Shown: one piece after another, positions 17,021 through 23,609 of the stretch
Layout of the letters: the number at the start of each line of letters is the position of its first letter
Numbering within the stretch: position 1 is the first letter of the stretch
From: Actinomycetota bacterium
GTDB taxonomy: Bacteria; Actinomycetota; Acidimicrobiia; Acidimicrobiales; Ilumatobacteraceae
Reading direction: 5' to 3'
Assembly (NCBI GenBank): GCA_016870295.1
Contig: VGBY01000002.1
Coordinates: 1 to 35,552, forward strand
DNA: 35,552 nucleotides
The notes under the pieces: generated by a model
The model's database searches: none
What the model saw: the letters and a program-made list of their open reading frames with translations, nothing else
Told to the model about the DNA's origin: nothing
Made by a program: the position numbers and the translations under genes

Positions 17021-17491
17021 GTGCGAGTCTCCACACGCGGCGATTACGCGTGTCGGGCGATGCTGTCGCTGGCGTTGCATGCACAAGAGCCGGGCCCGAT
17101 TTCGGTGCGCGACATCGCGACGCGTACCGCGCTGCCCCAGCCCTATCTCGAGCAGATTCTCCTCGCCCTAAAGGGCGCGGGGCTCGTGCATTCCAAGCGT
17201 GGTGTCGGAGGCGGCTACACGCTCGCCCGCCACCCCGACAAGATCCTGCTGTCGGAGATTCTCTCGGCCGTTGATGGCCCGATCTCCCTCGGCGACTTCG
17301 GCGAGCCACACCGTGACGGTGCCTGTGACCACGAAGGCCAGTGCGTGTTGCTCGCGATCTGGCACTCGGTCGGCGATCACATGCGTGATCATCTCGCCAA
17401 GTTCACGCTCGGTTCGGTGCTGGCGGCCGCACGTGGCGAGTCGCCGTGGCCCGACCAAGCGACCGACAGGAAGAAACGCGCGCGGCGCTAA
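17021..17491 (+). CDS. Rrf2 family transcriptional regulator
   Basis: VRVSTRGDYACRAMLSLALH...ISVRDIATRTALPQPYLEQILLALKGAGLVHSKRGVGGGYTLAR. GTG 17021 is the start consistent with the family N-terminus; the tracked ORF begins at 16931. Confidence 0.9.
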   Translation: MRVSTRGDYACRAMLSLALHAQEPGPISVRDIATRTALPQPYLEQILLALKGAGLVHSKRGVGGGYTLARHPDKILLSEILSAVDGPISLGDFGEPHRDGACDHEGQCVLLAIWHSVGDHMRDHLAKFTLGSVLAAARGESPWPDQATDRKKRARR

Positions 17492-18465
17492 CTCAGCGAC
17501 GCCACGAGCGTTGCAAAATCGCCCGGCAAATCGCTCGCGAACTCGCATCGCTCACCAGTGCGCGGATGATCGAATCCGAGTCGATGGGCGTGCAACATCG
17601 GTCGCGCAGCGCGGATTCCCGCCCGCACTCCCCCGTACTGCGCATCGCCGACGACGGGATGACCAATCGACGCCAAGTGCACACGAATCTGGTGCGTGCG
17701 CCCGGTCTCGAGGCGACACTCGACCAGCGACGCATCTTTCGGAACGCGGAACGAGCGTTCGACCGCGTAATGCGTGCGGGCTGGCCGACCGTCGACCACC
17801 ACCGCCATGCGCGTGGGATCCCGCTGATCACGACCGATGGGCGCATCGATCACACCGTTGAGCGACGTCGGCACTCCCCACACGACGACCGAATACACCC
17901 GCGTCACGCTGCGCATCGTGAGTTGTTCAACTAGCGACTCGTAGGCGAGTTGCGTGCGGGCAACCGCAACCAGACCCGTCGTGCCCGCGTCGAGGCGATG
18001 CACGATGCCTGGTCGCATCGGGTCGCCGACCGATGCGATCTCCGGGTAGGCCGCCAACAAGTAATTGACCATCGTGCCCGTCTTGTTGCCGGCGCCAGGG
18101 TGCACCACGAGACCTGCCGGTTTGTTGACGACGAGCACGTCGGCATCCACGTGAATGACATCGAGGGTTTGGCTCGCATCGGCTGCTGGCAACTCCGGGC
18201 CACTCGCAGCTGAGATGTCGACGGTGATGACCTGCCCGGTTGCCACTTTTCCCTTACCGGCGGACACCACGTCGCCGTCGAGCGTCACGGCACCGGACTC
18301 GATCAGCGCTGCCGCTGCGTTGCGACTGATGTCGGCGATCAACGACACCACGCGGTCGATTCGCACATCGGCAAGCGACGCCGGAATCGTCTCGGTGACG
18401 CGCCGCGCAGTGCCCGTCGTATCGTCATGAATGTCGTCGGTCATCGGTGTGCCATCACTCGTCAT
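17488..18465 (-). CDS. rluD: RluD-type 23S rRNA pseudouridine synthase
   Basis: S4-like RIDRVVSLIADISRNAAAALIESG; HRLDAGTTGLVAVARTQLAYESL; RLETGRTHQIRVHLASIGHPVVGD. Confidence 0.94.
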   Translation of the reverse strand: MTSDGTPMTDDIHDDTTGTARRVTETIPASLADVRIDRVVSLIADISRNAAAALIESGAVTLDGDVVSAGKGKVATGQVITVDISAASGPELPAADASQTLDVIHVDADVLVVNKPAGLVVHPGAGNKTGTMVNYLLAAYPEIASVGDPMRPGIVHRLDAGTTGLVAVARTQLAYESLVEQLTMRSVTRVYSVVVWGVPTSLNGVIDAPIGRDQRDPTRMAVVVDGRPARTHYAVERSFRVPKDASLVECRLETGRTHQIRVHLASIGHPVVGDAQYGGVRAGIRAARPMLHAHRLGFDHPRTGERCEFASDLPGDFATLVASLS

Positions 18466-18472
18466 CCGCGAT

Positions 18473-18955
18473 TCAGTTGCTCGCCGCAGTCGTCGCCGAC
18501 TTGGCGCGCAGTGAGGCGAGAACCATCAACGCTGCGCCGATCGTGATGCACGAGTCGGCGACGTTGAAGATCGGGAACCACTGCAAGTCGACGAAATCGA
18601 CGACCGCGCCCCGCAACCACGCATCGTTACGGAAGAGCCGATCCACGAGATTGCCGAGCGCGCCTCCGACGATGAGCCCGGCGGCGACTGCCGAAACTCC
18701 GGTTGCCGAACGACGCATCCACAACACGATCACGATGATGATGACGAATGCGAGTGCACCAATGATCGGTCCTGCGCCCGTTGCCTGCGAGAACGCCATG
18801 CCCCTGTTGAACGCCAGGTTGAAGCGCAACGAGCCGATGATGTCGATGGTGCGCCCGCCAGACAGGCGGTTGAGTGCCCAGTGCTTGGTGAGTTGGTCAA
18901 CGACGACGATTGCAGCGATGAGCAACCAGAGTTTGCGCGTCGCTACCTGGCTCAT
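18473..18955 (-). CDS. lspA: Lipoprotein signal peptidase II
   Basis: VVDQLTKHWA, FNRGMAF, GALGNLVDRL, VDFVDLQWFPIFNVADSCI. ATG at 18955 overlaps the upstream TGA (ATGA). Confidence 0.95.
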   Translation of the reverse strand: MSQVATRKLWLLIAAIVVVDQLTKHWALNRLSGGRTIDIIGSLRFNLAFNRGMAFSQATGAGPIIGALAFVIIIVIVLWMRRSATGVSAVAAGLIVGGALGNLVDRLFRNDAWLRGAVVDFVDLQWFPIFNVADSCITIGAALMVLASLRAKSATTAASN

Positions 18956-20157
18956 CGATTGCCCAGACCGCCGGCGCGTTCGGTGACGAGCTCGGTGGTC
19001 CACGGCAACACTTCAAGTCGCTCGCGCGGAATCGGCAAACCGGAGTACGACGAGTAGCCATACTCGCCGATCTCCATGCGTTTCAGCGCCGCGTCGATGG
19101 CTTCAACCTCCAGGCGCGCCTGTTCGGAGAGAATGAGGTCGCGTTCACGCTCGACCACCATCGTGTCGCCCTCGCCCCCCTCTTCGCCGAAGTCGACATC
19201 ACCCATCTCTTGGTTGTCGACGATCTCCATCGCGTCCTGCTCGAGACGCTTGGCCTGCCCGAGCAGCTCCACGCGCTTCTCAATGAGCAACTGGCGTTGT
19301 GAACGCAAGAACGCAACGTCGAAGTCCTTCGTCGGGGTGATGCCGTCGACGGGCTCATACTTGATGATCGGTGGCTTGACCGGCTTGGCCATCGCCTTTT
19401 CTTGCTGTTCGCGGATGCGGCGTTCGTCTTCATCACGAATCGCGCGAATACGCGCGCGCTCGGCTTCGCGTGCTTGACGTTCGGCTTCCTTGGCCTTGGT
19501 GACTTTGTCGCGCTCGCGCTGCTTCTCGCGCCGCTCTTCGTCGATGATGGCGCGCTTGCGGGCCTGCTCACGGCGACGTTCTTCGGTCGCTACCTGACGC
19601 TCGAGGTCGCGACGCTTCTTCTCCGCCAACCTCTCCTTCAGGATTCGCTTACGTTCGGCCAGTTTCTCACGCGCCAGACGCTTGCGCTCACGCTCCGCCT
19701 CGAGTCGGGCCCGCTTGCGATCGCGCTCTGCAGCAAGGCGCGCGGCTTTGCGTTTGCGCTCATCGAGCTTGCGTTGTTGAGCCTTCTTGCGGCGCGCCGC
19801 CTCGGCTTTGGCTCGCGCCGCGCGCTTGGCGGCCTCGGCCTTTTTCTTGGCGGCCTTGCGGCGCTGTTCATCGGCGCGTTTGCGGGCAGCCTTGGCCTTG
19901 GCTTCTTTCTTGGCTCGTGCCGCACGGCGTTTGGCCTCGAGCGCCAGGCGAGCCTTTCGCTTGCGGGCGTCGATGATCTTCTGGCGGGCGGCCTTGCGCC
20001 GCTTTTCCTCCAACAGTCGCTTGGCCTTCTTGCGCCTCAGTTCCTCAAGTTTGCGACGCTTGGCGGCCGCGAGGAGGGCCTTTTTCCTGGCTTGCGCCTT
20101 CTTCTTGGCTTGCGCCCGCTTCTTGGCGGCGGCTTTGCGCTTCGCGGCGGCGTTCAT
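18952..20157 (-). CDS. Highly charged Lys/Arg/Ala/Glu helical protein with a Cys-less DksA/TraR-like C-terminal domain (401 aa)
   Basis: N-terminal MNAAAKRKAAAKKRAQAKKKAQARKK... for about 270 aa, then LLGQAKRLEQDAMEIV...ALKRMEIGEYGYSSYSGLPIPRERLEVLPWTTELV. The tracked start at 20226 lies inside ileS; ATG 20157 is used. Confidence 0.88.
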   Translation of the reverse strand: MNAAAKRKAAAKKRAQAKKKAQARKKALLAAAKRRKLEELRRKKAKRLLEEKRRKAARQKIIDARKRKARLALEAKRRAARAKKEAKAKAARKRADEQRRKAAKKKAEAAKRAARAKAEAARRKKAQQRKLDERKRKAARLAAERDRKRARLEAERERKRLAREKLAERKRILKERLAEKKRRDLERQVATEERRREQARKRAIIDEERREKQRERDKVTKAKEAERQAREAERARIRAIRDEDERRIREQQEKAMAKPVKPPIIKYEPVDGITPTKDFDVAFLRSQRQLLIEKRVELLGQAKRLEQDAMEIVDNQEMGDVDFGEEGGEGDTMVVERERDLILSEQARLEVEAIDAALKRMEIGEYGYSSYSGLPIPRERLEVLPWTTELVTERAGGLGNR

Positions 20158-20164
20158 GACCCCG

Positions 20165-23100
20165 TCAGGGTAGCCGCTCGACACCCACGTGGAGTGGTAC
20201 GTCGTCGAGCGTGGTGTTGGCTGCAAGACCGTTGCCGACGGCCGCGAGCACCACGTCCCGCGCCAAGGTTTCTGATTTCACCATCGACTCGTGCGCGCGA
20301 ACTGCAGCGGCGACATCAGTAGGTGCGCCAACCGTCAACCGGATGCGGTCAGAGACGTGCAGACCCGCGTCGCGGCGGGCCTGCTGCACGAGACGAATCA
20401 CATCGCGTGCCACACCTTCTTGTTTGAGGTCGTCGTTCACCGCGAGATCCAAGACGACGATGCCCGAACCATCGGAGAGTGCCGCGCTGCCCCGTTCACC
20501 CTCGCCGGTGGCGACGAGTTTCAACGAGAACTCCCCGTCGTGCAGTTCGACCCCACCGGCGACGACGCGACCGCCGTCAATCGACCAGTCACCCTGCTTC
20601 ACGGCGCGAATCACCTTCTGCGTGTCGGCCCCGAGGCGAGGCCCGAGGGCGGCCGGGGTGACGAGGAGTTCGCGGCGGGCGTGCTCGTCGACGTTCGCAC
20701 TCAGCACCACGCTGCGCACGTTGACTTCGTCCTTGATGACATCCGCGAAGTCGCCGAGCGTGGTGGCTCGCGCACTGGCCACGACGAGCGAGGCGAGCGG
20801 TTGACGCACCCGCAACTGGTGTGCCTTGCGCACCGACAGCGTGCTCGAGCACACGTCGCGCGCCAAATCCATCGTGGCGACCAATGCATCGTCGGCTGCC
20901 AGTCCTTGCGTCGTCGGCCAACTGGTGAGATGCACGCTTCGCTCGCCCGACAAGCCGCGATACACCTCCTCCGTGGTGAGCGGGAGCAGCGGAGCCGCGA
21001 CACGACAGAGGATGACGAGCACGCTGTGCAGCGTGTTGATTGCCGCCTGGTCGCCCTCCCAGAATCTGTCGCGGCTGCGACGGATGTACCAATTGGTGAG
21101 CACGTCGAGGAAGTCGCGCACCTGCGCGCAGGCATCGAACAGGTCGTTGCGTTCGAATGCCGTCGTCGTTGCGTCGATGAGCGCGCGGGTCTTGGCCAAC
21201 ACATAGCGATCCAACACGTGCGCACTCGACGTGTCAAAGACACCCTTCTTGCCTTCCGCATTCGCGTACAACGAGAGGAAGTACCAAGAGTTCCACAACG
21301 GCAGGATTGTCTGGCGCACCGTGTCGCGAATGCCGGCTTCGGTCACGGAGAAGTCCGCACCGCGCAGGATCGACGACGACAGCAGGTACCAGCGCATTGC
21401 GTCGGCACCGTACGTGTCGAACACTTTCATCGGGTCGGGATAGTTGCGCAGGCTCTTTGACATTTTTTGTCCGTCGTCGCCGAGCACGATGCCGTGACTG
21501 ACGCAACTCTTGAACGCCGGACGATCGAACAATGCCGTCGCCAGCACGTGCAGCGTGTAGAACCACCCACGCGTTTGGCCGATGTACTCGACGATGAAGT
21601 CACCCGGATAGTGGCTCTCGAACCACTCCCGATTCTCGAACGGATAATGCACCTGCGCGAAGGGCATCGACCCGCTCTCGAACCAGCAGTCGAGCACTTC
21701 GGGCACGCGACGCATCATCGACTTGCCGGTCGGATCGTCGGGGTTGGGTCGCACGAGGTCGTCGACGAACGGACGATGCAGTTCCTGCACGTGCACGCCG
21801 AAGTCGCGCTCGAGGTCGGCGATGCTGCCGTACACATCGATGCGCGGGTACTCGGGGTTGTCGCTGCGCCACACCGGGATCGGCGAACCCCAGAACCGGT
21901 TGCGGCTGATCGTCCAGTCGCGCGCGTTCTCCAGCCATTTGCCGAACGACCCGTCGCGAATGTGGTCGGGAACCCAGGTGATCTGCTGGTTGAGCGCCAC
22001 CATGCGCTCCTTCACTGCCGTCACGTTGACGAACCACGAACTCACGGCGCGGTAGATGAGCGGTGTGCCGGTGCGCCAGCAGTGCGGATACGAGTGGTCG
22101 TAGGTTTCGTGGCGCAGCACGACCCCGTTCTCTTTCAACTTCTTGATGACGAGTGGATTGGCCTCGAACACTTGCAGGCCGGCCAAGTCGGTGACTTCTT
22201 GCGTGAACTTGCCGCGCGAGTCGACGGGCACGACGAGATCGATGCCCGCTTCGGCACACACACGTTGGTCGTCTTCACCGAAGCCCGGCGCAATGTGCAC
22301 GACACCCGTGCCGTCTTGCGTGGTGACGAAGTCGCCGGCAAGGACGCGGAACGCCCCGTGCGCGGCGCGGTCGGCGAAGTACGGCAGCAGCGGTTGGTAT
22401 CGGCGACCGACGAGTTCGCTGCCGCGCAGCACGCCAATCTGCTCCGCGCCGGCGAGTTCGCGCTCGTACGCCTCGCGGCGCGCGGCGGCCATCACGTACC
22501 GCGTGCCGTCGAGTTCGTACACGCCGTACTCCACATCGGCGCCGACGGCAAGAGCGAGGTTGGACGGCAGGGTCCACGGTGTCGTCGTCCAGGCGAGCAG
22601 ACGCTCCCCCGATTCCAGCAAGAAGCCGACGGTGAGCGCGGGGTCTTGCACCATCTTGTACGTGTCGTCCATGCGCGTCTCAGAGTTGGAGAGCGGCGTC
22701 TCCAGCGCCCACGAGTACGGCAGCACGCGGAAGCCCTCGTAGATGAGGCCTTTGTCCCACAACGTCTTGAAGGCCCACATCACGCTTTCCATGTACGGAA
22801 GATCGAGCGTCTTGTAGTCGTTGTCGAAGTCGACCCAGCGCGCTTGTCGTGTTACATAGCGCCGCCAGTCGCTCGTGTACTGCAGCACCGACGTGCGGCA
22901 GTGGTCGTTGAACTTGTCGATGCCAAAGTCGGTGATCGCCTGGCGACCGGAGATACCGAGCTGACGCTCGGCTTCTGCTTCGGCGGGCAGACCGTGACAA
23001 TCCCAACCGAAACGCCGCTCGACGCGCTTGCCACTCATGGTGCGATACCGCGGCACCGCATCCTTCACGAAACCGGTGAGGAGGTGTCCGTAGTGCGGCA

Positions 23101-23350
23101 GGCCGTTCGCGAACGGCGGGCCGTCGTAGAAGACGAACTCCGTGTCGTGCACGCCTGTGTGCTGATCGGCTGCGCCGGTCGGCGCGCGCCCAGCGTTCGT
23201 GCGCGGGTGCTGCTCGACGGAGGCCTCAAACGTGCGATCGGCCTCCCAGTAAGAAAGCACTTTTTCTTCGATGTGCGGCAGGTTGGGCTGCGCCGCGACG
23301 TCGGGATACCGGTTCGCCGCCGACAAACCTTTCGTGGTGGAGTCGGCCAT
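20165..23350 (-). CDS. ileS: Isoleucyl-tRNA synthetase
   Basis: [12 protein letters not shown] (HIGH region), [27 protein letters not shown]. Start at MADSTTKG (23350). Confidence 0.96.
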
Positions 23351-23363
23351 TAGTTGGCGTCGC

Positions 23364-23609
23364 TCACAGTCCGGCGTTTTGCAGCATTCGTTGCACGAAT
23401 CCGAGGGCAATCACCACGACGATGGGCGAGATATCGATCGGCCCGAGGCTCGGGATGAGTCGGCGTGCCGGACCGAGCACGGGCTCGGTGACCTGAATGA
23501 GCACGCGGTTCACCGAACCCAGTGCACCACCCGGCTGACTCGGGAACCAACTGAGGATGATGCGTACGAAAATGACGAACGTGTAGAGGGAAATCAATTG
23601 GCTGATCAT
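23364..23609 (-). CDS. YggT family membrane protein
   Basis: [23 protein letters not shown]...[36 protein letters not shown] Shine-Dalgarno-like sequence upstream. Confidence 0.92.

Follow-up and report, generated by a model that had tools for sequence, protein, structure and literature searches.

The locus considered here lies in a contig (VGBY01000002.1) assigned to the Ilumatobacteraceae, within a stretch of 35,552 nucleotides that was analysed as a whole and is called the window below. Between ileS and lspA it encodes a protein of 401 amino acids without a single cysteine, in which a long basic tail precedes a C-terminal part reminiscent of DksA. The question that it raises is whether such a protein may still act on RNA polymerase when its zinc ligands are gone, and what the tail contributes. 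A literature search turned up no study of DksA in Acidimicrobiia.

The gene begins with an ATG at 20157, its product starting MNAAAKRKAAAKKRAQ, and ends with a stop codon at 18954-18952 (Table 1); for reasons given below it is called DdbA-like. It is separated from ileS by 7 bp and its stop codon overlaps the ATG of lspA in the sequence ATGA (18955-18952), an arrangement that suggests a single operon of ileS, the DdbA-like gene, lspA and rluD. No RNA families were found across the whole window. In the window's family ileS is codirectional with the other three genes (loci L106-L115 and L148-L166); most of the other families read have a divergent ileS (L059-L063, L066, L069, L077, L080). The IleRS of the window's family shares only about 36-46% identity with most class members' IleRS, and 56% with that of L079, and ileS looks inverted or replaced in the window's lineage.

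Table 1. Coordinates of the DdbA-like gene, the parts of its product and its neighbours in the window.
Feature	Coordinates	Strand	Basis
CDS of the DdbA-like protein	18952..20157	minus	ORF list, orthologs, dN/dS
Residues 1-140, K/R/A-rich, net charge +52, without Pro or Gly	19738..20157	minus	composition; fastest-evolving part
Residues 141-258, E/R/K-rich rod (R/E/A/K), net charge +16, without Pro or Gly	19384..19737	minus	composition, AlphaFold, dN/dS
Residues 259-276, Pro-containing linker (PVKPPIIKYEPVDGITPT)	19330..19383	minus	low pLDDT; sequence
Residues 277-401, DksA-like domain: antiparallel coiled coil, globular part, C-terminal helix	18955..19329	minus	profiles, AlphaFold, Foldseek
Residues 319-331 (GDVDFGEEGGEGD), acidic coiled-coil tip	19165..19203	minus	57-sequence alignment
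Residues 366-372 (YGYSSYS), former proximal zinc ligands, now S369 and S372	19042..19062	minus	alignments
ileS ORF, upstream neighbour	20165..23410	minus	orthologous neighbours
lspA, downstream neighbour	18473..18955	minus	orthologous neighbours
rluD-type pseudouridine synthase, downstream of lspA	17488..18465	minus	orthologous neighbours
Overlapping ORF on the opposite strand to the DdbA-like gene	19402-20322	plus	ORF list

The resemblance of the C-terminus to DksA is real and far beyond chance. When the C-terminal 144 amino acids were compared with NCBIfam, they matched TIGR02890 (yteA; 7e-15, 55.4 bits against a curated cut-off of 134.4), NF033459 (DksA; 6e-7, 29.8 bits against 105) and TIGR02420 (dksA; 7e-7, 29.6 bits against 115.5), all three scores being below the cut-offs. 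This single-sequence search is the independent test, because the 57-ortholog profile includes orthologs that retain all four cysteines (C4); that profile matched, among PDB structures, the DksA proteins of Chlamydia trachomatis (6ptg; the best profile match, 7e-21), Agrobacterium (3e-15) and Escherichia coli (1e-13) and DksA2 of Pseudomonas aeruginosa (7e-15). The Pfam model PF01258 (DksA/TraR C4 zinc finger) does not match the window protein, as expected since the cysteines are gone. An AlphaFold model of the C-terminus built on the ortholog alignment (pLDDT 88.7, pTM 0.79) places long helices at positions 24-61 and 72-106 of the fragment, together with a small globular part and a helix at the C-terminus, giving the antiparallel coiled coil and globular domain of DksA proper in the 125 residues of the domain. 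The top eight Foldseek matches of this model in the PDB are all DksA proteins (E from 1.6e-4 to 1.3e-2), headed by the zinc-free DksA2 of P. aeruginosa (4ijj, E 1.6e-4), and no non-DksA structure appeared below E = 1. It is the model to use for the domain rather than that of the run on 11 genus sequences, in which confidence in the C-terminus is low because the alignment is shallow. Profiles and structure prediction thus bear out the DksA-like C-terminus proposed in the sequence-only reading. The best family model, TIGR02890, describes the YteA/YlyA group of Bacilli, in which we know of no H1-like tail. The ylyA gene adjoins ileS in B. subtilis (PMC5282499), and it is named among transcription factors acting in germination (PMC6568419: a factor for germination genes).

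The C-terminal motif reads YGYSSYSGLPIPRERLEVLPWTTELVTER, with serine at both proximal zinc positions and, by alignment, leucine and glutamate at the distal pair (S/S/L/E over the four positions); the sequence-only reading had likewise seen Ser at the first two positions and no distal pair. Its further suggestion that the loss of cysteine is special to this protein is not supported: the proximal positions are S/S or S/T in all 62 family genomes in which the domain was read, a single-cysteine YGICxxSGxPIP prevails in the sister families of the order, and C4 is mostly retained in the remaining families of class and phylum. Among the 57 aligned sequences, 18 have C/C at the first two positions and both distal cysteines, 2 have C/A and the distal pair, 10 have C/S (8 of these lack any distal cysteine), and 27 have S/S or S/T and no cysteine. 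The apparent loss of zinc is shared and graded along the lineage (C4 to CxxS to SxxS) and therefore not peculiar to the window gene. In one lineage of the class (L080, L081, L085, L086, L089, L095) the proximal pair reads CxxA, the distal CxxC is intact and an additional cysteine stands just ahead of the domain (for example TCRLSGFEV in L080 and ATCPLSGIFV in L089); this cysteine might be a replacement zinc ligand.

Zinc-poor DksA proteins are already known. DksA2 of P. aeruginosa does not coordinate zinc yet functions, replacing DksA1 (PMC9213440), so the loss of zinc need not imply a loss of function; unlike the window protein, DksA2 keeps two cysteines, lacks a basic tail and accompanies a C4 DksA1 as its zinc-starvation paralog. 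The DksA of Chlamydia reads YGICDVSGEEIP, that is, CxxS without the distal pair, as in the sister families of the window's family, but it keeps one cysteine and the tail is absent.

The fusion of an H1-like to a DksA-like part has already been published as well. Three citing papers (PMC9043899, PMC11942623, PMC11229371) portray DdbA of Streptomyces as a nucleoid-associated protein whose N-terminus is H1-like and binds DNA and whose DksA-like C-terminus is able to modulate RNA polymerase. DdbA of S. coelicolor (SCO2075), which shares the basic H1-like N-terminus and the DksA-like C-terminus, is compared here by that description, and the sequence comparison was made with the copy at locus L058, from a genus with genomes of 8-10 Mb that we infer to be Streptomyces. 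The L058 copy lies at the ileS-lspA locus common to the DdbA type and the window gene and has four cysteines and a long K/A/G tail, whereas the window protein has none and its E/R/K-containing tail is free of Pro and Gly. By architecture, locus and homology the window protein is the positional ortholog of DdbA and a protein of the same kind; the Lys/Ala-rich DksA-like proteins near lspA and ileS that the sequence-only reading mentioned for Streptomyces were evidently of this type.

At the search thresholds used, homologs were found in 13 of 13 genomes of the genus, 114 of 121 of the family, 279 of 296 of the class and 82 of 119 of the phylum. Where the flanks are readable, the best homolog lies mostly between ileS and lspA-rluD, and most class sequences read at this locus have a basic tail. 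A chance ORF or decayed frame is ruled out by the homologs in every genome of the genus together with low dN/dS, and recent horizontal acquisition is not supported, the locus being constant and the gene present family-wide. In the window's own genome (76% complete) the DdbA-like gene is the only DksA-like gene found, and a search with PF01258 found no canonical C4 DksA elsewhere in the genome in 12 of the 13 genomes of the genus. One genus member, G406 (a 64%-complete assembly), has a PF01258 match of 2.7e-12 at L168 (G406:C4:3434-3541), which may come from a foreign contig or from a second, rare gene of DksA type. Twelve of the 13 genomes contain RelA/SpoT.

The window protein is probably its family's version of DdbA, a two-part protein of chromatin and transcription for which we infer both modulation of RNA polymerase and binding of DNA. 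The acidic coiled-coil tip of the DksA fold would most likely enter the secondary channel of RNA polymerase and modulate initiation, with the globular part of the domain stabilised by packing and not by zinc. The charge of the N-terminal 258 residues would most likely let them bind DNA (or RNA) irrespective of sequence, as DdbA does with its H1-like tail. In place of a flexible Lys/Pro/Ala tail, this genus is predicted to have a continuous charged helix; its strongly basic distal half (1-140) would be borne on the stiff E/R/K half (141-255), and a short Pro linker would lead to the polymerase-binding domain. Such a protein would tether polymerase to DNA in its vicinity, compact DNA, or do both. 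In favour of a DdbA-type protein are counted the presence of RelA/SpoT, the standing of the gene as the sole DksA-like gene found in its own genome, and the constancy of locus and architecture through class and phylum orthologs. Against it are counted the ppGpp-site and tip substitutions described below and a tail that differs from DdbA's in having no Pro and 16% acidic residues overall.

Residues 1-258 have a net charge of +68 and contain neither Pro nor Gly; the basic K/R/A and then E/R/K rod-like extension seen in the sequence-only reading is evident in the composition and the predicted helix, although it is 258 residues long and not about 270. AlphaFold, run on 11 sequences of the genus, gives one continuous helix from residue 3 to 255 with a pLDDT of about 90 over most of it, which stays a prediction because AlphaFold tends to draw such charged sequences as helix. 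At 1.5 Å per residue, 253 helical residues would by arithmetic span about 380 Å. Opposite charges at i/i+3 and i/i+4 are above those of shuffled sequences (z = 7.1 for residues 1-140 and 2.5 for 141-258), and the charge period of residues 113-256 falls outside the classical 6-9 residues for a charged single alpha-helix. A coiled-coil rod, the other option considered earlier, is unlikely for residues 41-258 because hydrophobic heptad positions are sparse and too few.

The KER of CAF-1, a Lys/Glu/Arg-rich single alpha helix, binds DNA and serves as a spacer (PMC10335832). Since a charged single helix can bind DNA, the helical tail of the window protein may, by analogy, be a stiff DNA-binding arm. 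The KER and the rod have a similar residue make-up and i/i+4 pairing, but the KER measures 128 Å against the length predicted here and belongs to an unrelated eukaryotic histone chaperone, so the likeness is a resemblance of kind only. The analogy can be taken further: in this clade the flexible H1-like tail would have stiffened into a single alpha helix that binds DNA and, as a ruler or tether, links the nucleoid to RNA polymerase with the zinc-free DksA-like domain held at a set distance, the protein being the only DksA-like factor of the cell and in kind a bacterial counterpart of the KER. To this stronger form we give a modest chance at best.

In the coiled-coil tip, E326 and E329 match D71 and D74 of E. 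coli DksA (ungapped hand alignment via C4 orthologs) and are acidic (Glu/Asp) in 55 and 56 of the 57 sequences, respectively; such near-invariant acids are in keeping with binding in the secondary channel of RNA polymerase. The position of E. coli A76 in the tip is Asp. By alignment, E. coli R91 is replaced by Q, K98 by A, R129 by L and K139 by R, the four residues that we take to be ppGpp site 2 of E. coli DksA. Because these residues are largely not kept, it is doubtful that the window protein acts with ppGpp or depends on it. With all zinc ligands and most ppGpp-site residues lost, and with a highly charged tail that exceeds it in size, the domain might have ceased to act on RNA polymerase and become the structural head of a mainly nucleoid-compacting or scaffold protein; the low dN/dS of the domain (about 0.06-0.12 within the genus), the conservation of its acidic tip and the precedent of a functional zinc-free DksA2 (PMC9213440) make this unlikely.

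The putative operon with ileS in the window's family would suit a tail that binds RNA or ribosomes and not DNA and in this way links the DksA-like domain to transcripts or translation. Many RNA-binding proteins, too, have K/R/A-rich helices. Such a role seems improbable all the same, given that DdbA, the only studied ortholog, is reported to bind DNA (PMC9043899).

The DdbA-type reading also gains from the way in which the tail evolves. The rod is under strong purifying selection, its dN/dS within the genus (0.05-0.16) being as low as that of the folded domain, and residues 1-140 are looser (0.19-0.64, with dS saturated in several pairs). Tail length and repeats differ widely from genus to genus and the first 140 residues evolve fastest, but a freely drifting low-complexity expansion with little function is very improbable in view of the constraint on the rod, the basic tail common at this locus through the class and the long Pro/Gly-free runs in every genus member with a complete tail.

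Most family members read have Lys/Pro/Ala repeat tails, in which Pro/Gly-free runs span 7-42 residues. Four genera, all with small assemblies, have proline-poor tails (g1, which is the window's, g6, g12 and g232); when complete, these have Pro/Gly-free runs of about 130-276 residues and are roughly 9-23% acidic. On a FastTree tree of IleRS, LspA and RluD, some nodes of which are weak, the four cluster with g9, the sister of g12, whose tail is of the Lys/Pro/Ala form in g9. The helical tail therefore arose either by two gains or by one gain and a reversal. The contigs of several relatives end or hold runs of N within the repetitive tail (L008, L009, L018, L031, L126/L127, L128, L084); Lys-rich repeats seem to break assemblies, and tail lengths in draft genomes are therefore lower bounds.

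Of the two features that the sequence-only reading took for novel, the non-Pro helical tail stands, being confined to a few genera, and the loss of cysteine falls, being the rule in the family. The architecture is a common form in the class with a known function, and so, largely, is the cysteine-poor domain; the proline-free helical tail is not. The predicted charged-helix tail is possibly a new element; combined with the total absence of zinc ligands, it is what keeps the protein of interest.

A single class thus offers a graded natural series from C4 to wholly cysteine-free DksA-like domains. With the cysteine-free form as the only DksA-like protein found in a genome, comparison can test the need for zinc (and thiol sensing) in DksA. 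As a Lys/Pro/Ala tail gave way to a predicted charged helix while locus and partner domain stayed the same, the lineage also provides a natural experiment on flexibility versus charge alone in bacterial nucleoid proteins.
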